A stretch of DNA of 64,000 nucleotides, from the NCBI RefSeq assembly GCF_003325355.1, contig NZ_CP030850.1:2728001-2792000 (forward strand), written 5' to 3'. The position numbers and the translations under genes were made by a program. Each line of letters starts with the position of its first letter. Position 1 is the stretch's first letter. Shown here piece after piece: positions 2,268 to 16,204 of the stretch. The DNA comes from Runella rosea (lineage in GTDB: Bacteria; Bacteroidota; Bacteroidia; Cytophagales; Spirosomataceae). The notes below the pieces were generated by a model, which worked only from the letters and a program-made list of their open reading frames with translations, did no database searches and was not told the DNA's origin.

Positions 2268-3071
2268 ATGTTTTTATTCCAGATAGGTTTTTTAAACATC
2301 GAATGGGTAGATGTATTGGACATCCTGCTCGTGGCATTTTTACTGTATCAAATCTACTACTTAGTACGTGGAAGTTTGGCGAGCCGCGTATTTCTGGGCT
2401 ATTTACTGATTTATCTTTTCTATTTGGTCGTACGTGCCATTGGCCTTGAGCTTTTGACCAAAATTCTGGAATATTTCATGGGCGTAGGAGCCGTAGCGTT
2501 GATTGTGATTTTCCAACAGGAAATTCGACGCTTTCTGCTGTTTATCGGAAAATCGACCGCTTTTGCCAACAACCGCCTTCTGGGTCGTTTTTTGCGGCAG
2601 CCTACTTCAACCGAAAAAATAAACGAAATCAAACCCATCATTGAAGCCGTTCGGGCCATGGCGTCTGAATTTACGGGCGGCCTATTGATTATCAAGAAAA
2701 ACGACGAACTCGACAAATACCTCCAAACTGGCGAGGAAGTCGACAGCGTACTTTCCAAGCGTCTTTTTCTTTCATTGTTTAATCAATACAGCCCCATGAA
2801 CGACGGTGGTGTGATTGTGGCCGACGGGCGCATCAAAGCCGCACGCTGTATTTTACCCGTTTCTGACAGCGACGATTTCGGTAATTTAGGCTTTCGTCAC
2901 CGGGCGGCGTTGGGCATGAGTGAAGTAACGGATGCCGCCGTCATTGTGGTCTCTGAAGAAACAGGGCGTATTTCGCTCGCCATTGAAGGAAATCTATTGA
3001 GCAATATTCCCGCTTCTGAAGTCGAAGAACGGCTTCGAAAATACCTGTTTGAACAAAGTAGTAAAAAATAA
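2268..3071 (+). CDS. cdaA: Diadenylate cyclase CdaA (c-di-AMP synthase)
   Basis: Membrane-anchored diadenylate cyclase that makes c-di-AMP from two ATP. The N-terminal ~90 residues hold three hydrophobic helices, followed by the QQEIRRFL linker and a DisA_N-type cyclase domain to the end (267 residues, usual CdaA length). The RHR motif is intact (GFRHRAALGMSE) and the C-terminal strand VVSEETGRIS is normal. The usual LHDGA substrate motif reads MNDGG, a departure noted under findings. No CdaR-type regulator gene is adjacent. The gene ends 3 nt before the stop codon of the convergent sulfatase gene. Confidence 0.93.
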   Translation: MFLFQIGFLNIEWVDVLDILLVAFLLYQIYYLVRGSLASRVFLGYLLIYLFYLVVRAIGLELLTKILEYFMGVGAVALIVIFQQEIRRFLLFIGKSTAFANNRLLGRFLRQPTSTEKINEIKPIIEAVRAMASEFTGGLLIIKKNDELDKYLQTGEEVDSVLSKRLFLSLFNQYSPMNDGGVIVADGRIKAARCILPVSDSDDFGNLGFRHRAALGMSEVTDAAVIVVSEETGRISLAIEGNLLSNIPASEVEERLRKYLFEQSSKK

Positions 3072-3074
3072 TTA

Positions 3075-4487
3075 TTAGTTCTTCATCTGTTCGGTCTTTG
3101 CTGAGTTGCCGTAGTAAGGATACGTTTCAAAAGGTTGCTTTCCCGCCATGCGAGGGTCGGCAGTCTCTTTTCGCCATTGGGTCAATTTCATCGACAAATC
3201 CTTCTTGATGGACTGATAGTTGCCATTTTCGGCCAAATTATTCACTTGTTCGGGGTCTTTCTTTAAATCATACAGCTCTTCTGCTGGACGCTTGGCAAAA
3301 CACAATCGGTAATAATAGGCGTACTTGGCGGAATCTTGTAAGATAACATCCTTGGTAGGCCCAGGATCAACGTCTCCGTAAGCCCCTACGGCAAAATAAG
3401 GCTGCGGATCGCCAGCGGGCCATTGCTTTGGCGCAAGGTTTTGAATGTATAAAAAATCACGGGTACGAATGGCGCGGATAGGGTAACTTCGGTCGCCCCT
3501 GCGCACATTGGCGTGTCGTTCGCGTTCAAGGAAAACTTCATTTCGATGATTTTGAGTCTGATTTATCAGTAAAGGCCACAGGCTTTTACCCGACATTTCT
3601 TTGGGAATAGGCAGACGGGCCACTTCCAAAAAGGTAGGCGCAAAGTCGACAAAACTCATAAAGGTATTGGTAGCATGAGCTGCAATTTTGCCTTTCCAAT
3701 AAAATACCAACGGTAAGTTCGTTCCAGCATCGTACACATTAGCTTTGGCGCGCGGGAAGGGCATTCCGTTGTCGGAGGTAACAACTATGAGGGTATTTTC
3801 TAGCTCACCGATTTCTTCCAGCTTTTTGATAAACTGGCCCACTTCCCGGTCAAAACGTTGTACCTCATAATAATAATCCAGCACATCGTTGCGGATTTCG
3901 GGCGTATCGGGCCAGTAAGCAGGTACACGCACATCGGCAGGATTCATTCCTGAGGCTTTTCCCGTTCCTGCTTCATATACCCGGTGCGGATCTTGGCTAC
4001 CAAACCAATAACAAAAAGGGCTATCGGCTGGCCGTTTTTCCAAGAATTCATCAAAGTTTTTGTAGCTTTTACCCGCAGGGTTTTGTTCATAACCACCGAC
4101 TTTAAAATCGCCCGGCCCCCATCCCTTGCGTTCCAGCCCCACATGGTAGCCATTTTGAGCCAATATTGAAGCATAATTAGGCAGCTTGGTTTGCAGTGTA
4201 CTCCAAAGATTTCCGCTTTCTTCATTTTGATGCGGGTAGCGTCCCGTCAAAATCGTTGCCCGGGAGGGTGTACACGACGGGGAGCCACAAAACGCATTGG
4301 TAAAAACGACACCTTCGCTGGCTAAACGGTCAAAATTGGGCGTTTTAACGACTTTATTCCCATAGATTCCCGCATGCTTTCCCCAGTCATCGGCAATGCA
4401 GAAAAGGATATTAGGCTTTTTTTGCGCCCACAGAGGATGCCCAAATAAGTATAACAAACCAAAAGTTAGGAACTTGATAACTTTCAT
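3075..4487 (-). CDS. Secreted sulfatase (type I, formylglycine-dependent)
   Basis: Hydrolyses sulfate esters, probably on a polysaccharide or its breakdown products in the periplasm; substrate unknown. 470 residues from the ATG at 4487, which begins a signal peptide ending LWAQ. An upstream extension of the frame has no signal-like start and was rejected. Metal-binding D33-D34 (IADDWG) and the sulfatase signature C72-T-P-S-R, where the Cys is converted to formylglycine, are present, plus the LTGRYPHQ block and a distal SDNGMP metal-site motif. C-terminal sulfatase subdomain ends YPYYGNSAK. Third gene of a three-sulfatase run, 40 nt after the preceding one. No maturase gene (anSME or FGE) lies in the window. 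Confidence 0.92.
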   Translation of the reverse strand: MKVIKFLTFGLLYLFGHPLWAQKKPNILFCIADDWGKHAGIYGNKVVKTPNFDRLASEGVVFTNAFCGSPSCTPSRATILTGRYPHQNEESGNLWSTLQTKLPNYASILAQNGYHVGLERKGWGPGDFKVGGYEQNPAGKSYKNFDEFLEKRPADSPFCYWFGSQDPHRVYEAGTGKASGMNPADVRVPAYWPDTPEIRNDVLDYYYEVQRFDREVGQFIKKLEEIGELENTLIVVTSDNGMPFPRAKANVYDAGTNLPLVFYWKGKIAAHATNTFMSFVDFAPTFLEVARLPIPKEMSGKSLWPLLINQTQNHRNEVFLERERHANVRRGDRSYPIRAIRTRDFLYIQNLAPKQWPAGDPQPYFAVGAYGDVDPGPTKDVILQDSAKYAYYYRLCFAKRPAEELYDLKKDPEQVNNLAENGNYQSIKKDLSMKLTQWRKETADPRMAGKQPFETYPYYGNSAKTEQMKN

Positions 4488-4527
4488 AATGAAAAAATAT
4501 AAGACATGGGAGAAGCCACTACAAGTA

Positions 4528-6060
4528 TCAATAATTTCCCTTATAAATGTGGTCGTTGCGTTTTTGTTGAATCCGTTTGAGCGGAATCTGCAAACCATTC
4601 GTACTCTCCAACCAGCCCCAAACTTGGTCGCGCAGGTCTTTCGCAATCGTCTGGTGCTGAGGACTTCTGATTAGGTTATTGATTTCCTCGGGGTCGGTTT
4701 GGAGGTCGTAAAGTTCGTTGGCATCCCACACGCCGTGGTTGAAAATGTATTTGTAACGGTCGGTTCGTACAGCAAACATCGTGGGAGTTTGAGGAAAATC
4801 ATATTCCCAGTAATATTCATAAAATGCCCGGTCTTTCCACTCCGTTTTTTGTCCTTTCAGCAACGGAAGAAACGATTTCCCCTGCATTTGAGCGGGCGTA
4901 GCCAAGCCCGCATAGGCCAAAATCGTGGGCGCAATGTCGATGTTCTGAATCACATTGGTGAGCTTGGTTTTGGGTTTTATCACCGACGGGCAACTCACCA
5001 ACATCGGCACCCGCATGGATTCTTCATAAGCATGGCGTTTGTCAATCAGACCGCGTTCACCAAAACTAAACCCGTTGTCGCCCATATAAATCACCAAAGT
5101 ATTTTCGGCCAATCCATTATCTTCCAAGTATTTCATCACCCGACCCACGCTTTCATCGACTCCGATCAGGGTTTCGCAATACTGACGATAAAAATCATTG
5201 AAGCTGATGGTTCCATGGTAAAGATAATCCACTCCGTGCCAGCTATAACGCTGATTTTTGACCCAATTGGGCATATCTTTCATGTTGCTTTTGACCTCAC
5301 CCGTCTCGGGGTCTTTTGCATTTTTTCCCCAAATTTTACTGGTATCGCTTTTGGTCAGGTACATTGAGGCAGGGTACTGAATCGGCATGTCTTTATACTT
5401 ACCCGCATGGCGCTTGGCGGGTTGAAAATCGGCGTGAACGGCCTTGTGCGAGAGGTACAAAAAGAACGGTTTGTTTTTGTCCTGCTTGCCCATCCACTCA
5501 ATGGCGTAGTCGGTCAGCAAATCGGTCGTATAGCCATCTTTGTGGCTTACCTGTTTGCCGTTGATGTTGAATGTGGGATTGTAATACTGCCCTTGTCCTT
5601 TAAAACTCAACCAATAATCAAAGCCCGGTTGCGGGGCGTCGTCGGCGTTACCCATGTGCCATTTGCCCAAGAAAGCCGTTTTGTAGCCCGCCTTTTGCAG
5701 ATACATCGGAAAAAACTTGGTATTGGGCGGCAAGGGCGCAAAGTTGTCAACCACCTGGTGCGTGTGCGCGTATTGACCCGAAAGAATGCTCGCCCGGCTC
5801 GGCGAACAAAGGGCCGTGCTCACAAAGGCGTTTTGTACGTGCGCCCCATTGGCAGCCATTTTATCCAGGTTAGCGGTCTGTAAACCCGAGAACTTTTCCA
5901 TAAAACCCATGGCATCGTAGCGGTGGTCATCGGCCAAAATGAAGATGACATTTTTGGGAGAAGCAGCAACGTTTTTTGTGTTTTTCGACGGATTAAATCC
6001 CGTCAAAGCAAAGATACCAGCCGTAGCCGCGATACAAAAGAGAAAGGCTTTTTTGAACAT
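4528..6060 (-). CDS. Secreted sulfatase (type I)
   Basis: Second member of the sulfatase run; 510 residues. N-terminal signal peptide (MFKKAFLFCIAATAGIFALTG). D44-D45 (ILADDHRYD) bind the metal and C85-S-P-S-R is the formylglycine signature, followed by ILSGQYAHTH. A distal MGDNGFSFGERG motif supplies further active-site residues. The region from about residue 430 (FYEYYWEYDFPQTP ... ELYDLQTDPEEINNL) matches the C-terminal domain often found in N-sulfoglucosamine sulfohydrolase/iduronate-2-sulfatase-like proteins; the substrate is only inferred. 83 nt separate it from the upstream sulfatase, so one transcript is likely. Confidence 0.92.
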   Translation of the reverse strand: MFKKAFLFCIAATAGIFALTGFNPSKNTKNVAASPKNVIFILADDHRYDAMGFMEKFSGLQTANLDKMAANGAHVQNAFVSTALCSPSRASILSGQYAHTHQVVDNFAPLPPNTKFFPMYLQKAGYKTAFLGKWHMGNADDAPQPGFDYWLSFKGQGQYYNPTFNINGKQVSHKDGYTTDLLTDYAIEWMGKQDKNKPFFLYLSHKAVHADFQPAKRHAGKYKDMPIQYPASMYLTKSDTSKIWGKNAKDPETGEVKSNMKDMPNWVKNQRYSWHGVDYLYHGTISFNDFYRQYCETLIGVDESVGRVMKYLEDNGLAENTLVIYMGDNGFSFGERGLIDKRHAYEESMRVPMLVSCPSVIKPKTKLTNVIQNIDIAPTILAYAGLATPAQMQGKSFLPLLKGQKTEWKDRAFYEYYWEYDFPQTPTMFAVRTDRYKYIFNHGVWDANELYDLQTDPEEINNLIRSPQHQTIAKDLRDQVWGWLESTNGLQIPLKRIQQKRNDHIYKGNY

Positions 6061-10060: not shown

Positions 10061-10091
10061 CAAAAATAGAGCTCAAATTTGAAATTGCCAA
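10061..10091 (-). promoter_or_regulatory. Bacteroidota-type promoter of the lipoprotein gene
   Basis: Read on the minus strand: TTG (complement of 10089-10091), 20-nt spacer, TATTTTTG (complement of 10061-10068), an exact match to TTG-N19/21-TAnnTTTG. It sits 28 nt before the ATG at 10033. Confidence 0.6.
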
Positions 10092-10097
10092 CGTTTC

Positions 10098-10105
10098 TAC
10101 ATTTG
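10098..10105 (+). promoter_or_regulatory. Possible -7 element for hslU
   Basis: TACATTTG fits TAnnTTTG exactly and ends 24 nt before the hslU ATG. The nearest TTTG upstream (10078-10081) leaves only a 16-nt spacer, so the promoter is less certain than the divergent one it overlaps. Confidence 0.35.
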
Positions 10106-10129
10106 TTTTGTAAAATTTTAATCGCATTT

Positions 10130-11566
10130 ATGTCCTTACACTTAGACAAATTGACACCGCGCGAAATAGTCGCCGAGCTTGATAAATACATCATCGGACA
10201 ACACGATGCCAAGCGCAACGTAGCCATTGCCCTCCGAAACCGTTGGCGGCGCATGAACAGCACGCCCGAAATGCAAAAGGAAATCATTCCCAACAACATC
10301 CTCATGATTGGGGCCACGGGGGTCGGGAAGACCGAAATTGCCCGCCGATTGGCCAAAATCGCCAATGCACCTTTCGTAAAAGTGGAAGCTTCGAAGTTTA
10401 CCGAAGTGGGTTATGTGGGTCGCGATGTAGAAAGCATGGTGAGGGATTTGGTAGAACAGGCCGTTAATCTGGTCAAAACCGAAAAGAAAGAAGCCGTCAA
10501 ACAAAGAGCGCAGGAAATCGTCGAAGATATTATTTTGGACGTGTTGATCCCTCCGATGTATCCCAACAATACCAACCAAAACCAGCACCGCCCCAGCGTT
10601 GGATTTGCCATTACAGATGATGCTGACATGGTGCAAACCCCGCCGCCAATTTCTTCCATGCCCGACCACGAGCTCAACGAACGGACACGCGGGCGTTTTC
10701 GGGAAAAACTGCGCGCAGGCGAGCTCGAAGACCGCAAAATCGAAATAGATATGCAGGCATCGGCCGCACCCAACATCGGCGTCATGGGTGGTCCCATTGA
10801 TGATATGTCGATGATGAATATTCAGGAAATGCTGGGCAATATGATGCCTAAGCGCAACAAAAAGCGCAAGGTGACCATCGCCGACGCCCGCAAGATTTTG
10901 CTCGAAGAAGAAGCCGCCAAGCTCATCGACATGGACGAGGTCAAAGAAGAAGCCATCGCCAAAGCCGAAGATTTAGGCATTATTTTTATTGATGAAATTG
11001 ACAAAATCGCCAATTCAAACGGAAAGGGTGGCGGCCCCGATGTGAGCCGCGAAGGCGTACAACGCGATTTGTTGCCGATTGTGGAAGGCTCTACGGTCAA
11101 CACTAAATACGGCCCCATCAAAACCGACCATATTTTGTTTGTGGCGGCGGGGGCATTTCATGTTTCGAAGCCCTCTGATTTGATTCCCGAATTGCAGGGA
11201 CGTTTCCCGATTCGGGTCGAATTGCAAAGCCTTACGGAAGATGATTTCTACCGGATTTTGAAAGAGCCCCGCAACTCTCTGACTCGCCAATACCACGCGC
11301 TGATGGAGTCTGAAGGTGTAGAACTGACGTTTAACGACGACGCCCTGCGCGAACTCGCCAAGCTAGCTTTTACCATCAACTCCGACGTCGAAAACATCGG
11401 GGCGCGTCGTTTGCAGACGGTGATGAGTACCTTACTCAATGATTTTATGTACGACATTCCCGACGTCATCGGTGCCAATTCACACGTGTTGGTCACCAAA
11501 GAATTGGTACAACAACGTCTGTCAAGTCTGGTCAAAAACCGCGATTTGAGTCAGTATATTTTGTAG
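10130..11566 (+). CDS. hslU: ATP-dependent protease ATPase subunit HslU (ClpY)
   Basis: AAA+ unfoldase that feeds substrates to the HslV peptidase in the cytosol. 478 residues from the ATG at 10130 (MSLHLDKLTPREIVAELDKY); the longer frame upstream has a hydrophobic prefix not found in the family. Walker A GATGVGKT at residues 61-68, the pore motif GYVGRD near 93-98, a Pro/Asn-rich I-domain insertion at about 135-245, Walker B IIFIDEIDKI and the conserved C-terminal tail ending YIL that docks into HslV. No hslV is beside it, unlike many bacteria. Convergent with the LytTR regulator gene across a shared hairpin. Confidence 0.95.
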   Translation: MSLHLDKLTPREIVAELDKYIIGQHDAKRNVAIALRNRWRRMNSTPEMQKEIIPNNILMIGATGVGKTEIARRLAKIANAPFVKVEASKFTEVGYVGRDVESMVRDLVEQAVNLVKTEKKEAVKQRAQEIVEDIILDVLIPPMYPNNTNQNQHRPSVGFAITDDADMVQTPPPISSMPDHELNERTRGRFREKLRAGELEDRKIEIDMQASAAPNIGVMGGPIDDMSMMNIQEMLGNMMPKRNKKRKVTIADARKILLEEEAAKLIDMDEVKEEAIAKAEDLGIIFIDEIDKIANSNGKGGGPDVSREGVQRDLLPIVEGSTVNTKYGPIKTDHILFVAAGAFHVSKPSDLIPELQGRFPIRVELQSLTEDDFYRILKEPRNSLTRQYHALMESEGVELTFNDDALRELAKLAFTINSDVENIGARRLQTVMSTLLNDFMYDIPDVIGANSHVLVTKELVQQRLSSLVKNRDLSQYIL

Positions 11567-11623: not shown

Positions 11624-12406
11624 TTACCGCACCACGATCTGATGCCCCAATCGTTCTAAAAGCGATTCTCGGTACTGCATCCCTATCGGAATCTGTACAT
11701 TAGAGAGCAGTCCCAACATGTTTCCGCTGATGCCTTTGATTTTGGTGAGGTTGGCAATGTAGGATTTATGAACCCTGGCAAACATCGCCGAAGGCAGACT
11801 TTCTTCCATTTTTTTCATGGTCAGGTACGTAACAATAAAGCGGTTTTCGACATAAATCTTTACGTAGTCCTTCATCGCCTCCACGTACTGAATATCGGTA
11901 AATTGAATTTTGACGAGGTTTCCGTCTTCTTTCACAAAAATATGTTCTTCAGCGTTTGAGCGCGGTGTACCGGTTTCCTCAACGGGAGGCTTGGGAAGGG
12001 AAATTTCAGGATTCCCTTGTCGCCTTTGTCCCAATATTTCTTTGGCTTCAAATCGCTCTTTCACTTTCTGTACCGCCCTTAAAAATCGCTCAAACGCAAT
12101 GGGTTTCAGCAGATAATCCGTTACATCTAACTCAAACCCTTCATGGGCATATTGATGAAAAGCGGTGGTCATGACGACCTGCGGGCGTTGCGGCAATGAT
12201 TTGAGAAATTCGAGCCCGGAGATTTGAGGCATCTCAATGTCACAAAAAATCAAGTCAATGGCATTTCGGGAAAGCTCATCGTAGGCTTCAAAAACGTTAT
12301 TGGTTTTCGCCACCAATTCCAAAAAAGGAAGACGCCCGATAAACGTTTCAATAATTTCCTGCGCAATAGGCTCGTCTTCAACGATTAAACAGCGTATTTT
12401 TTTCAT
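11624..12406 (-). CDS. LytTR-family response regulator
   Basis: DNA-binding response regulator of 260 residues. Receiver domain 1-125: acidic pocket E10-D11, phospho-acceptor D56 (LIFCDIEMP), conserved Thr/Lys near 80 and 102 (MTTAFH, LLKPI). A linker of ~35 residues (Pro/Glu-rich) leads to a LytTR DNA-binding domain from about 155 (IFVKEDGNLVKIQFTDIQYV) to the end. Last gene of a three-gene operon with two LytS-type kinase genes; 37 nt separate it from the second. It is presumably phosphorylated by the canonical kinase; targets unknown. Confidence 0.93.
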   Translation of the reverse strand: MKKIRCLIVEDEPIAQEIIETFIGRLPFLELVAKTNNVFEAYDELSRNAIDLIFCDIEMPQISGLEFLKSLPQRPQVVMTTAFHQYAHEGFELDVTDYLLKPIAFERFLRAVQKVKERFEAKEILGQRRQGNPEISLPKPPVEETGTPRSNAEEHIFVKEDGNLVKIQFTDIQYVEAMKDYVKIYVENRFIVTYLTMKKMEESLPSAMFARVHKSYIANLTKIKGISGNMLGLLSNVQIPIGMQYRESLLERLGHQIVVR

Positions 12407-12443
12407 AAAATCTTTTTCTCCGGCAGCGAAATATCGTCGGTTT

Positions 12444-13535
12444 TTAATTCATTAATTTCTTTTCAGTCATGATGCTTTCCAATTCCAATCTCAACTCCAT
12501 TTTATAGACATATTCGTTCTCAATCAGCTGAAGACGGTGTTTATTTGGGTACAGATAAGTCAAGCGTTTTTGGGTATTTTCGAGAGCGTTATTTTGACAT
12601 GAATTGATTTTGTCGGCTTCGACTCTAAGCGTCAGCACTGATTTTTCGACCAATAAATCAATGTCACACTCTGATTTTAAGCATTTGAAAGCACTGTTTA
12701 TCAAGGGAAAAAGAAGCATCGGGGCAATCTGTAAATACTCGCTTTGTTCCGTTTTGAGCCTGAAATTAACGTTGACTTGGTTGGGCAGACGACTTTCTTC
12801 CAGATCAATGCAATTGATGATAAAGTCCAATTCTTTCGGCAAAGGCACGGCATCCACGTCGGTTTCGTAAAGGGTATAGCGGGTTGTGTTTGACAATTTA
12901 AGCACCATTTGGGCCGCCTGCTCCGGGGCTGTGGCAGTCAGTTTTTTGATATTTTCCAACGCCCCATTGATAAACTGAGGATTGATCTGCGATTTTAACA
13001 GCTTGATTTCCAAATCCATTTTGTTTTTCTCCAGCAAATTATTTTTCCGTTGATTCATGACCAAATCTATCATCAGTTTCAGTGAAATAGGAAACCACCG
13101 GCTGGGCTGCGACAGGAAAAAATCAGTATTAAAAAGCAAAAATTGCAGCCTTTTCAACATCCCACCGCCTTCTATATTAATCATGTGATTATAATCTTTA
13201 GTGAAGGTTCCGAAGTCAAAATAACGAAGCGCAATTTGCCAGAATATTTCACCTACTAACGCTCTGAACCCATAACCGGCAAAAAACAACACGATCAGAT
13301 AGAGAACATACTTTGATTCTGTAAACATCCGATGCACGCAAACCAACGCCAACCGGTAGATGCTGTACGAGGCAAGCGTGCTTCCCACGGCCCAAACCAT
13401 CGCCCCTGATGTAAACATATTTGCCGATGCGCCTACATAAAAACACCCATACATGTACCAAAACAGCCAAAATAGCCATTCACCGATGACGGCGCGTTTG
13501 TTATAAATATAGCTTGAGATTAACTTCATACTCAT
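12444..13535 (-). CDS. Degenerate LytS-type sensor kinase (predicted pseudokinase)
   Basis: 363-residue membrane protein related to its upstream neighbour: several N-terminal hydrophobic helices (to about residue 100), a further hydrophobic stretch near 130-160 and a coiled-coil-like lead (NNLLEKNKMDLEIKLLKSQ) into a His_kinase-type region. The H-box reads KSQINPQFINGALENI, so the phospho-acceptor His is Gln187. The N-box reads LINSAFKCL where the partner has FVENAFKHG, and the G-box (GGIGLVNI in the partner) reads NNALENTQ. All three catalytic motifs are thus lost while the frame is intact. It overlaps the upstream kinase gene by 35 nt, implying translational coupling. Best read as a non-catalytic partner or sensor. 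Confidence 0.88.
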   Translation of the reverse strand: MSMKLISSYIYNKRAVIGEWLFWLFWYMYGCFYVGASANMFTSGAMVWAVGSTLASYSIYRLALVCVHRMFTESKYVLYLIVLFFAGYGFRALVGEIFWQIALRYFDFGTFTKDYNHMINIEGGGMLKRLQFLLFNTDFFLSQPSRWFPISLKLMIDLVMNQRKNNLLEKNKMDLEIKLLKSQINPQFINGALENIKKLTATAPEQAAQMVLKLSNTTRYTLYETDVDAVPLPKELDFIINCIDLEESRLPNQVNVNFRLKTEQSEYLQIAPMLLFPLINSAFKCLKSECDIDLLVEKSVLTLRVEADKINSCQNNALENTQKRLTYLYPNKHRLQLIENEYVYKMELRLELESIMTEKKLMN

Positions 13536-14646
13536 TGGGATTGTCTTGAATCGTCAGCAAATGGTTGGGATACAACAGCGAAAGCCTGCGCTTGATATTG
13601 ACCAGGCCGATACCACCGACCTTGGTTTTGCTGATTTTCAATACCGGCTTCGTATTTCTTACCGTAAAGTTCAATTGCCTGTCTTTAAGGGTTAAACGAA
13701 TTGATATCTGCGCTTGGTCGAGGTTATTGAGCAGGCCGTGTTTGAAAGCATTTTCAACAAACGGCAGCAGCACCCGCGGTGCAATTTCTTGATTTTGCAT
13801 TGCAGCTTCATCGGTATCAAAATCAATCGTTACGTTTTTATCGTGCCTTATTTTTTCCAGATTAACGTAGTTTTTGAGGTAATCAACTTCCGATTGCAGA
13901 GGAACTTTACTGCCCAACGAATCATCAAAAGATTGTTTCAGCAGGCTCTGCAATTGACTGATGGCGGTTTGGGTTTCGGGCTTTTGATTGAGGATCAATC
14001 CATAAATATTGTTAAGAGAATTGAACAGAAAATGGGGATTGAGCTGGCTTTGCAAAAACTTCGATTCAAGGTGATGATTAAGGTCGTTGAGCTGTTTTTG
14101 TTTGATGGTATTCTCAATAAAATACTTCATCGTTTTGGCTAAAACAATAAGCCCGAATTGGTTTCTGAATTCATAAAATACCGTGAATGCAAAGGACAGA
14201 CTCGTGAAATGCCCCAACAGCCCGCGTTCGTTGAAAGTATCTACAAAGGCCAACAGGGGATTGTCCTCGCGGGACGTAGAATACGCGTTGACCTTATTAA
14301 GCCCGTATATCTCCTGAACAAATAAAAAAGTACCGTACGTAAAGACGGTAAAATACCAAAAGGCCACCGCCGAGAAGAAGGCAAGGTATTTTTCGCGAGC
14401 AAAGTACTTGGGAAACAAATAGTAGAAAATAAAGTACCCGGCCAAAATATTACTGCCCAAATAGAGATAAAAATAGGTGGAATAGCGCAGGTTTTCGACG
14501 TAAAATTCAGCCATTAAGTTTTTATAACTGAAATACAGATAACTCAGGTGAACCAAAACCCGCAGCCAGAGCCCCTCATTATAAAAATGAAGGACCTTCT
14601 CCATAAAGTCAAATGCCTTGGTATTCTGTTGGTCGAGCCGATTCAT
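13501..14646 (-). CDS. LytS-type sensor histidine kinase
   Basis: Membrane histidine kinase (His_kinase PF06580 type) of 381 residues. ATG at 14646 (MNRLDQQNTKAF) is preferred to an in-frame TTG at 14670. Four hydrophobic helices in the first ~170 residues form the sensor region. The catalytic part has the intact H-box SQLNPHFLFNSLNNIYGL (phospho-acceptor His about residue 205), N-box FVENAFKHG and G-box VGGIGLVNIKRRL. It opens the operon followed by the pseudokinase and the LytTR regulator. Signal sensed is unknown; LytS systems elsewhere respond to envelope or metabolite cues. Confidence 0.92.
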   Translation of the reverse strand: MNRLDQQNTKAFDFMEKVLHFYNEGLWLRVLVHLSYLYFSYKNLMAEFYVENLRYSTYFYLYLGSNILAGYFIFYYLFPKYFAREKYLAFFSAVAFWYFTVFTYGTFLFVQEIYGLNKVNAYSTSREDNPLLAFVDTFNERGLLGHFTSLSFAFTVFYEFRNQFGLIVLAKTMKYFIENTIKQKQLNDLNHHLESKFLQSQLNPHFLFNSLNNIYGLILNQKPETQTAISQLQSLLKQSFDDSLGSKVPLQSEVDYLKNYVNLEKIRHDKNVTIDFDTDEAAMQNQEIAPRVLLPFVENAFKHGLLNNLDQAQISIRLTLKDRQLNFTVRNTKPVLKISKTKVGGIGLVNIKRRLSLLYPNHLLTIQDNPNEYEVNLKLYL

Positions 14647-14785: not shown

Positions 14786-16204
14786 ATGAGAAAAACCGTT
14801 GCTGCTTTTATTTTCATTCTTCATTGTCTAATCGGCAAGGCCCAAACCTGCGATTGCGCCACGATGTTAACGGCCGTTATTCAAAAAACAGAGGACAATT
14901 ATTCGGGTTATTTTGATAAAGTGAACGCTAAAACCAAACCCCGTTATCATCAATTGACCGACAGCCTGCGTACAGCCTCGAAAGGCATAACCGGTGAGAA
15001 AGACTGCTATCAATTGCTGAGAATCTACAAGCGCTTTTTTCGTGACGGACATTTTCAACTTTCCTACAATGCCCCCGAAGTAGTAGTTCCAATCCGGACT
15101 ATCAACACCGACGAAGCAAAGGCCAAAGCCTATTTTGACGCCCATTCGGCTACATTACACCCCCTTGAAGGCATTTGGGAAGCGGTAGACGGCAGCTACC
15201 GCGTGGCGCTCATGCGCGACCCACTCCAAGCCGACAAAATTGCGGCGGTAGTATTGGCGGCCCAAAACAAAAAATGGCAACCAGGCATGGTCAAATTTGA
15301 GGCCAATGCCGACGGTGCAAGTCCTTATAAAGGCATTTATTGGGCGGGCGATCTGTCATCGTCGGAGCGGACGTTTCCGTTGGAAAGAAACATGATGAAT
15401 ATCCCGAACTCAGGCTATTGGGCACGGGAATATCCGCAAAAGGCTACCCCCGAAGAGCTTGCCAAAGCCCAACAGGGAGACGAAGTATTTCAAGTGAAAG
15501 CCATTGATCCACAAACGTTTTATATAAAAATACCCTCCTTTGGCATCTCGTTTGAAATGGTCGACAGCGTTTTGAAAGCCCATGATGCCGTGATTAGAAA
15601 CTCGCCTCATTTGATTGTGGATATTCGGGACAATGGCGGCGGTATGAACAGTTCGTTTCCGGCCCTTTTGAAATACCTCAATACCAACAACTTCAAAGAC
15701 ATTTATTCGCATTTTAGGAGTACTGCCGATAACCTGCAAGCCGAGCAGGAAATCATAGACCGAGCCTTATCCGAGGGTTGGATTTCGGCCAAAGAAGCCA
15801 AACCTTGGCAGGAGAGCTTAGCTAAGAACCGCAAACAAATCGGCAAAATGGTGAAATACCCCGCCGAAAATATGAAATACAAAGAAGTAATGGCGAATCC
15901 GCAGAAAGTGTCGGTTTTGATGAATGAACACTGTTACAGCAGCGCCGAGTATTTTGTGTTTTACGCCAAACAAAGCAAAAAAGTAACGCTTTTCGGCAAT
16001 CATACGGGCGGTATGATGGACTACGGCAACGTGCGCGAGCACAAACTCCCCTGCCCCACGTTTGAGTTGCGTTTGCCTACTACGCGCACAGGTTGGGTGG
16101 ACTATGCCCCGATTGACAACGTAGGTTTTCAACCCGACGTAAAGATCCCGGATACCGAAAAAGATTGGGTGAAATTTGTGCTCAACCATCGACAAAATCA
16201 ATGA
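14786..16204 (+). CDS. Secreted S41-family peptidase
   Basis: Exported peptidase of the C-terminal processing/tricorn-type S41 clan; 472 residues with a signal peptide ending GKAQ. The core begins near residue 240: IKIPSF strand, then LIVDIRDNGGGMNSS (the conserved D-R-x-N-G-G block) at about 277-291, and the nucleophile region HCYSSAEYF at 382-390, with S385 or S386 as the serine. A later GNHTGGMMDYGNV forms the oxyanion side. No PDZ domain is obvious. Divergent from the kinase operon (139-nt gap); followed by the outer-membrane barrel gene 108 nt downstream. Confidence 0.88.
   Translation: MRKTVAAFIFILHCLIGKAQTCDCATMLTAVIQKTEDNYSGYFDKVNAKTKPRYHQLTDSLRTASKGITGEKDCYQLLRIYKRFFRDGHFQLSYNAPEVVVPIRTINTDEAKAKAYFDAHSATLHPLEGIWEAVDGSYRVALMRDPLQADKIAAVVLAAQNKKWQPGMVKFEANADGASPYKGIYWAGDLSSSERTFPLERNMMNIPNSGYWAREYPQKATPEELAKAQQGDEVFQVKAIDPQTFYIKIPSFGISFEMVDSVLKAHDAVIRNSPHLIVDIRDNGGGMNSSFPALLKYLNTNNFKDIYSHFRSTADNLQAEQEIIDRALSEGWISAKEAKPWQESLAKNRKQIGKMVKYPAENMKYKEVMANPQKVSVLMNEHCYSSAEYFVFYAKQSKKVTLFGNHTGGMMDYGNVREHKLPCPTFELRLPTTRTGWVDYAPIDNVGFQPDVKIPDTEKDWVKFVLNHRQNQ

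Follow-up and report, generated by a model that had tools for sequence, protein, structure and literature searches.

A conserved LytS-type pseudokinase encoded between an intact LytS kinase and a LytTR regulator in Runella

Introduction

In Streptococcus pyogenes, two membrane kinase-like genes, those of FasB and FasC, are co-transcribed with the gene of a ComE-like regulator, FasA; a two-hybrid analysis showed interaction between FasB and FasC but not of either protein with itself, and FasC was proposed by the authors to be a pseudokinase (PMC12675982). Reports of sensor-kinase heterodimers are rare according to the same paper (PMC12675982). Among those described, a dead form of the ChrS kinase of Corynebacterium glutamicum heterodimerises with active HrrS and raises target expression (PMC9491836), and RetS inhibits GacS by heterodimerisation in Pseudomonas aeruginosa (PMC12675982, PMC12189002). 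A LytS pseudokinase was not found in our literature searches, which included text searches aimed at LytS or LytTR and covered few subscription papers. Here, we describe an operon of Runella rosea, within a window of 64,000 nt (the whole stretch of DNA analysed), in which an intact LytS kinase (K1) is followed by a LytS protein without catalytic motifs (K2) and a LytTR regulator.

Results

The operon lies on the minus strand in the order intact LytS K1, motif-less LytS K2, and LytTR regulator (Table 1). The coordinates, strands, frames, and 35-nt overlap of the original prediction were correct upon re-check, as were the three intact boxes of K1 and, by residue position, Gln187, LINSAFKCL, and NNALENTQ of K2. 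An alternative start is possible for K1 at an upstream TTG (14670), and the regulator matches both the Pfam Response_reg and LytTR profiles. K1 and K2 are co-directional and overlapping in all five intact copies of the operon (35, 35, 29, 29, and 29 nt), which suggests joint, balanced synthesis of the two proteins.

Table 1. Features of the K1–K2–LytTR operon, in positions of the window.
Feature	Position	Strand	Basis or remark
K1, LytS-type sensor kinase, 381 aa	13501..14646	−	ORF, profile match, motifs; hydrophobic N-terminal region
K1 H-box NPHFLFNSLNN, from residue 203	14008..14040	−	His205 is the phospho-acceptor by position
K1 N-box FVENAFKHG, from residue 296	13735..13761	−	Intact
K1 G-box GGIGLVNI, from residue 344	13594..13617	−	Intact
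K1/K2 overlap, 35 nt	13501..13535	−	
K2, full-length LytS pseudokinase, 363 aa	12444..13535	−	Motif loss and purifying selection
K2 degenerate H-box region KLLKSQINPQFINGALENIK	12945..13004	−	Within the most conserved part of K2
K2 Gln187 codon (phospho-acceptor site)	12975-12977	−	
K2 degenerate N-box LINSAFKCL, from residue 278	12678..12704	−	
K2 degenerate G-box NNALENTQ, from residue 315	12570..12593	−	
K2 stretch with codons for Cys285, Cys290, and Cys313	12597..12683	−	Between degenerate N-box and G-box
LytTR response regulator, 260 aa	11624..12406	−	Receiver domain (Asp56 by position) and LytTR DNA-binding domain

K2 is recognisably a LytS protein, matching the Pfam His_kinase profile (PF06580, cut-off 25.2 bits) with 60.3 bits, compared to 82.3 bits for K1. 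Among the 39 His_kinase matches of the genome its score (63.2 bits in that comparison) is the lowest, and it is the one protein of 39 distinct LytS sequences with neither the His nor the N-box Asn, the other 38 having both, indicating that its loss of motifs is more than chance. The phospho-acceptor His of the NPHF H-box is replaced by Gln in all five K2 orthologues, the ENAxKH N-box by NSAFKC, NNAFKC, or EKAFKC, and the GxGLxN G-box by NALEN and variants. With its catalytic residues gone, its gene full-length and purifying selection evident (see below), K2 is, by sequence, a predicted pseudo-histidine kinase.

The residue four positions after the phospho-acceptor His is important for phosphatase activity in other kinase families. 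This residue is Asn in K1 and Gly or Glu in K2, and the LytS profile shows the region between the N-box and G-box to be 12 residues (6 + 6) shorter in K2 than in K1. A K2 that retains some non-canonical catalysis, such as a phosphatase activity or the use of another phospho-acceptor, would fit a catalytic domain whose fold is predicted to be kept, but we consider it highly improbable given that K2 has lost the His, the N-box, and the G-box, has a shortened lid region, and differs from K1 at the residue four after the His. By analogy, K2 is probably catalytically inactive, as the H382Q form of BtsS, a His-to-Gln variant of an E. coli LytS kinase, is not phosphorylated (PMC10653868).

The original prediction also held that K2 keeps its membrane helices. 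A simple hydropathy scan, itself a weak test of this claim, found strongly hydrophobic stretches at residues 49–99 of K2 and 87–111 of K1, and the predicted model of K2 places long helices over residues 13–105.

Intact K2 orthologues were identified in 5 of 13 Runella genomes, belonging to two clades, and intact K1 orthologues likewise in 5 of 13. The residue at the His site is Gln in every intact K2, encoded by either CAG or CAA, no copy has an intact N-box or G-box, and this shared motif loss extends to orthologues with identity down to 58%. For four close pairs, dN/dS was 0.074–0.115 in K2 and 0.086–0.125 in K1 by NG86, and 0.13–0.18 and 0.17–0.19, respectively, by YN00; these were the measurable pairs of the ten for K2, with the six between-clade pairs saturated. 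Purifying selection on K2 was significant in all four (Fisher p ≤ 8.4e-17). The operon itself is dispensable, with no copy found in 7 of the 13 genomes, four of which (G007–G010) are fragmented assemblies of 200 to 790 contigs (G010 being 83% complete), and a broken copy in one more (G004). In that genome K2 is partly deleted and K1 and the regulator are broken as well, marking a loss of the whole operon and not of K2 alone. Outside of Runella, no K2 orthologue was present among the best nine or five candidates scored per genome, nor among the contig-scan matches listed, which may lack records close to that of the window, so that the homologous operons sought across Cytophagales were not recovered among the candidates scored.

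These findings bear on whether K2 is simply a decaying duplicate kinase. Although the operon is often missing and its K2 is a pseudogene in G004, we find decay barely tenable and reject it on the dN/dS of 0.07–0.12, the full-length frame in five genomes of two clades, and the motif loss common to orthologues just 58% identical. Of the signs that would have spoken for decay, an orthologue with an intact His, N-box, or G-box was not seen among the five, and a partly deleted gene was seen, in G004, together with the rest of its operon. The original prediction is partly supported: its core, a selected, non-catalytic protein, is upheld by the conserved Gln, the lost N- and G-boxes, and a dN/dS far below 1, while the roles that it named (heterodimer partner, extra sensor, or inhibitor of the kinase) are candidates.

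The most conserved part of K2 is its dimerisation segment (residues 161–222), with 46 of 62 positions invariant and a dN/dS of 0.00–0.07 in three close pairs. This is nothing special to K2, as the K1 segment is equally conserved (53 of 62 invariant). The segment would equally fit K2 homodimers, a counterpoint to pairing with K1. A K2 homodimer could offer its dead core as a putative docking site, for the regulator for example, and tune the pathway without pairing with K1, much as in the pseudo-histidine kinase DivL, whose catalytic output domain now senses the phosphorylation state of a regulator (PMC4211667). K1, K2, and the regulator share their fate in 13 of 13 Runella genomes (present, broken, or not found together). 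We regard the homodimer reading as fairly unlikely, given that K2 is never found without K1 among these genomes, and the gene overlap suggests joint, balanced synthesis.

The predicted structure of K2, built from a 12-sequence alignment, has a DHp-CA fold with a mean pLDDT of 71.5, and 15 of 16 ten-residue blocks over residues 191–350 fall between 77 and 88 (the remaining block at 67); because active LytS proteins were part of the alignment, the model is biased towards a kinase fold. An earlier model from three sequences was poor (pLDDT 44.8) and was set aside. The top second-look score was to the GanS kinase domain (Z 12.7, 4.7 Å, 169 residues), and other histidine kinases tied with it by scoring less than one unit apart. 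In the Foldseek ranking, the leading match was a plant phytochrome (E 1.1e-5) and histidine kinases came next; whole-model TM-scores were only 0.22–0.34 in the best 50 matches listed, and GanS was outside those 50. When the K2 sequence by itself was searched against solved structures, nothing significant was returned (best E 0.12).

An unexpected extra was a set of three cysteines in the former ATP-binding domain of K2. Cys285, Cys290, and Cys313 are invariant in all five orthologues and can be read even in the broken copy of G004, and the set occurs in none of 58 non-pseudokinase LytS rows (mean 0.33 Cys in the region, maximum 2). Cys285 sits at a position mostly occupied by the N-box His, Tyr, or Asn in other LytS sequences. 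These cysteines raise the prospect that K2 is a signal or cofactor module in which the former ATP domain, through a putative three-Cys site (redox, metal, or iron-sulfur), controls K1. We consider this very unlikely, as the conservation spans just two divergent lineages, about half of K2 is invariant in any case (192 of 353 positions), and the count of Cys in that region is 0 or 1 for the other dead LytS proteins.

Further dead LytS proteins were sought in genomes of the Runella family. A search for replacements of the His, limited to an unbroken F-x-[FY]-N context and to codons with a first base other than C, found at least 10 sites in 222 genomes. Four are full-length LytS proteins in tandem with an active LytS, namely those of G001 and G006, which carry another operon of active LytS, Asp-for-His LytS, and LytTR, and those of G183 and G190, from another genus, with Asp or Asn for His. 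One further site is a short LytS fragment (G098, 126 aa) and five are not LytS, of which the one in G076 matches the profile weakly (8.8 bits). Applied to 396 genomes of the class, this search gave six sites, with LytS at the G001 site only. Scanning the 222 family genomes for QxNPQF gave 106 sites, of which five are K2; none of 30 others inspected by eye was LytS-like, and 71 lay outside the inspection. A single origin of all His-less LytS kinases (9 of 67 rows) was rejected (p-AU 8.4e-6), while a common origin of K2 and the kinase with Asp for His in G001 and G006 was not (p-AU 0.33). K1 and K2 were not sisters in a 59-row tree, and forcing them together was not rejected (p-AU 0.36); that K2 might be a recent tandem duplicate of K1 is not established by that tree. 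A wider reading would be that asymmetric live/dead LytS pairs acting on one LytTR regulator recur in the family, having been built more than once, and that the ATP pocket of K2 was rebuilt as a three-Cys redox- or metal-sensing input domain that switches K1; taken whole, we judge it quite unlikely.

Discussion

We give a somewhat better than even chance to K2 being a non-catalytic subunit that gates K1 and pairs with it along the dimerisation helices. Such a role builds on the observed gene order, the retained loss of three motifs, purifying selection, and all-or-none presence of the operon, together with the predicted fold, and K2 as a partner of K1 is supported by Gln187 in 5 of 5 orthologues, the low dN/dS, the overlap in 5 of 5 copies, the shared fate in 13 of 13 genomes, and the recurring arrangement, with FasBC and ChrS/HrrS as precedents for a kinase joined to a pseudokinase. 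The dispensability of the operon speaks against such a role. From these, we infer a division of labour in which K1 would do all of the chemistry, binding ATP and autophosphorylating His205, from which the LytTR regulator would receive the phosphate at Asp56. K2 would be a dedicated pseudokinase subunit, probably membrane-bound, that keeps its hydrophobic N-terminal helices, its dimerisation and phosphotransfer helices, and a catalytic domain that still folds but is ATP-dead. Contact via the dimerisation helices would let K2 gate K1 activity, in a direction dependent on K1 chemistry. With phosphorylation in trans, K1 would face Gln187, so that the K1:K2 pair would be silent and K2 would act as a brake. 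Phosphorylation in cis could allow an active pair, in which K2 would serve as an extra input or a co-activator.

FasB and FasC belong to an AgrC/ComD-like kinase family, unlike LytS, and the ComE-like domain of FasA is a LytTR domain. The Runella operon, predicted from gene order, overlap, and domains, resembles FasBCA in joining two sensor-kinase genes and a LytTR-type regulator. It differs in that FasC keeps H246 and requires it for activity (PMC12675982), while K2 has no His and thus cannot take phosphate at that site. The dead ChrS form arose by frameshift in laboratory evolution and is not naturally conserved, and its partnership with HrrS joins two separate paralogous systems (PMC9491836). 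RetS and GacS are hybrid kinases, and RetS additionally acts by siphoning off phosphate and by dephosphorylating GacS (PMC12675982, PMC12189002); K2, in contrast, is encoded in one operon with the kinase proposed as its partner and is devoid of the catalytic residues.

DivL of Caulobacter is not known to be a LytS protein, nor is its gene known to share an operon with that of its partner kinase. K2 is like DivL in being a pseudo-histidine kinase with a seemingly repurposed core, although DivL senses a phosphorylated regulator (PMC4211667). BtsS/BtsR of E. coli shares the LytS kinase and LytTR regulator, but comprises one active kinase, with no pseudokinase partner described in the available text of that report (PMC10653868). 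K2 is encoded in one operon with a likely partner kinase and the regulator, combines the loss of three motifs with continued selection, and finds counterparts in related genomes, some of which arose separately. These features make the operon a clean natural system for how, and in which direction, a dead kinase may steer a live one.

Operon Organisation and Loss of Catalytic Motifs

The operon comprises three co-directional genes on the minus strand, encoding an intact LytS kinase (K1), a LytS pseudokinase (K2) and a LytTR response regulator, and lies between hslU and an S41-type peptidase gene. The H-, N- and G-boxes of K1 are all complete. The original observation of a full-length K2 gene overlapping intact K1 by 35 nt, with Gln187 replacing the phospho-acceptor His, LINSAFKCL replacing the N-box and NNALENTQ replacing the G-box, was borne out by the sequence. 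K2 is the lowest-scoring of the 39 His_kinase matches in the genome (63.2 bits); in the LytS profile alignment, the His and the N-box Asn are kept in 38 of the 39 distinct LytS sequences, and both are absent only in K2.

Features of the K1/K2 operon and of related loci (window coordinates, or local coordinates of the named locus)
Feature	Location	Position	Strand	Remark
hslU	window	10079-11566	+	name by eye; flanks operon
LytTR response regulator	window	11624-12406	-	260 aa
K2	window	12444-13535	-	363 aa
Three invariant Cys codons of K2	window	12597-12683	-	former ATP-binding domain
K1	window	13501-14646	-	381 aa
S41-type peptidase gene	window	14786-16204	+	name by eye; flanks operon
Broken K1/K2 operon	G004, L157	about 3039-5145		pseudogenes
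Second operon	G001, L159	1417-4305		Asp at His site
Second operon	G006, L190	1644-4534		Asp at His site
Dead/active LytS operon	G183, L191	2754-5757		other genus of family
Dead/active LytS operon	G190, L192	2466-5605		other genus of family
G-box-less LytS with active LytS	G000, L125	5395-8817		contig C1, 973000-983000

Distribution, Gain and Loss

Intact K2 was found in 5 of the 13 Runella genomes, namely that of the window (G000), G006 (91% identity to the window copy) and G002, G003 and G005 (57–58%). All five carry NPQF, the predicted conservation of Gln at the H-box, together with AFKC, and none has an intact G-box, this motif being absent throughout. The K1/K2 overlap is 35, 35, 29, 29 and 29 nt, and the K2–regulator spacing 37, 32, −4, −4 and −4 nt, in G000, G006, G002, G005 and G003, respectively. 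Across the 13 genomes, those with K1 are those with K2, and regulator orthologues (at least 394 bits; next regulator 246 bits) occur in the five with intact kinases.

Homologues had been anticipated across Cytophagales. An alignment query against 222 family genomes (best 9 candidates scored in each) and 390 sampled order genomes (best 5 in each) separated the K2 orthologues (at least 720 bits) widely from the next candidate (137 bits); among the candidates scored, no orthologue appeared beyond the genus, and the anticipated spread was thus not seen. Six of the nine next-best family loci read (L056, L058, L059, L060, L063 and L064) hold a LytS with intact His in the frames printed for them. The gap for K1 in the family is similar (orthologues at least 551 bits, the broken G004 copy 176, next 171), and a K2 scan of genome_contigs gave, among the matches listed, two Runella records and one weak match (23% identity) in a Lachnospiraceae MAG.

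All three genes are pseudogenes in G004, at the same site by hslU: K1 carries a frameshift, the DNA between K1 residue ~234 and K2 residue ~252 is deleted, and the regulator is fragmented. Decay of K2 in a relative, named at the outset as evidence against a function, therefore does occur, yet K1 and the regulator are broken there too. In G011 and G012, the ~250–300 bp between hslU and the peptidase gene contain no match to K1, K2 or the regulator. On the hslU tree, the operon occupies two clades and is absent from near members of each (G001 and G010; G007), a distribution that suggests one old gain at the hslU site followed by several losses of the whole unit, although transfer between the two clades may also account for it. 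Joint loss of the three genes fits a functional unit, and says that this unit is dispensable.

By eye, LytS/LytTR pairs adjoin lantibiotic-dehydratase-type genes at L058, L060, L064, and L155 and L156 (of G011 and G012), the last two loci holding the nearest relatives of the operon's regulator; a link between LytS/LytTR pairs of the family and peptide natural products is possible.

Selection, Predicted Structure and Cysteines of K2

The K2 dN/dS lies well below 1, as predicted (NG86, 0.115 for G000 versus G006 and 0.074–0.085 within G002, G003 and G005), with close-pair values of 0.086–0.125 for K1 and 0.023–0.049 for the regulator. YN00 gave 0.13–0.18, 0.17–0.19 and 0.04–0.09 for K2, K1 and the regulator, respectively; the six between-clade pairs were saturated, one regulator pair excepted. 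All four close pairs show a depletion of non-synonymous change in K2, with Fisher p ranging from 4e-26 to 8e-17. The dimerisation segment is its best conserved part (46 of 62 positions invariant; the N-terminal part has 77 of 160 and the remainder 69 of 131), which fits a retained dimerisation role but falls short of proof, because K1 shares this pattern (53 of 62).

The K2 model, built from 12 sequences, has a mean pLDDT of 71.5 (65.0–71.5 over five models), with 77–88 in 15 of the 16 ten-residue blocks of residues 191–350 and a helical N-terminal part of lower confidence; its alignment held active LytS proteins, which biases it to their fold. On a second look at the Foldseek matches, the top match was the GanS kinase domain (6swk, 6swj; Z 12.7, 4.7 Å, 169 residues, 17% identity), tied within one unit with other histidine kinases (Z 11.8). 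By sequence, K1 matches GanS (E 2.8e-12) and K2 does not significantly (E 0.18).

Cys285, Cys290 and Cys313, located between the degenerate N-box and the degenerate G-box, are present in all five K2 orthologues and still visible in the broken G004 copy. This set is absent from all 58 non-pseudokinase LytS rows compared over a fixed catalytic-domain slice (K1 orthologues included, two rows identical), of which 40 have no Cys, 17 one and 1 two; in the four further dead LytS rows the counts are 0, 0, 0 and 1.

Other Operons Pairing Live and Dead LytS Proteins

In a scan for LytS H-boxes with a non-His residue at the His site, G001 and G006 were found to carry a second operon, comprising an active LytS (HPHF, GGIGL), a dead LytS (NPDF, N-box ENAFKE, G-box absent) and a LytTR-type regulator. 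Between G001 and G006, these genes have NG86 dN/dS of 0.149, 0.201 and 0.040, respectively. G006 carries both operons and G001 only the second. The dead LytS branches as sister to its own live partner (98/70), a placement suggestive of local duplication. In G183 and G190, tandem pairs of another LytS subfamily have the dead LytS (Asp or Asn at the His site) first, followed by the active LytS and a regulator. A LytS of the window's own genome, directly before an active LytS and regulator (L125), has lost the G-box while keeping the His and N-box Asn, and is possibly able to accept, not make, phosphate; in the tree it falls with the G183 dead kinase (99/92). The tree test is compatible with K1/K2 sisterhood and with a common origin of K2 and the G001/G006 dead LytS; one shared origin for the whole set of dead proteins was rejected (p-AU 8.4e-6).

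Proposed Mechanism and Comparison with Known Systems

Selection on K2, its conserved dimerisation part and the position of its gene, beside and overlapping that of a live LytS, point to a K1:K2 pair, which would form between the two products. BtsS-H382Q, an E. coli LytS kinase with the same His-to-Gln change, is reported to be non-phosphorylatable (PMC10653868), and K2, lacking the His, would likewise not be phosphorylated. Published pairs behave as proposed here: FasB and FasC, a proposed pseudokinase, heterodimerise (PMC12675982), and dead ChrS pairs with HrrS (PMC9491836). K2 differs from FasC chiefly in lacking a His that could take up phosphate; with this residue gone, whether K2 acts to silence or to support K1 would depend on the direction in which K1 autophosphorylates.

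Pseudo-histidine kinases, and kinase pairs feeding a single regulator, are already known; the literature searched, with subscription journals mostly outside its reach, yielded no LytS pseudokinase. What is new is a naturally occurring LytS pseudokinase, under selection, that has lost all three motifs and shares an operon with its likely partner, together with the recurrence of the live/dead LytS design with residues other than Gln in place of the His.
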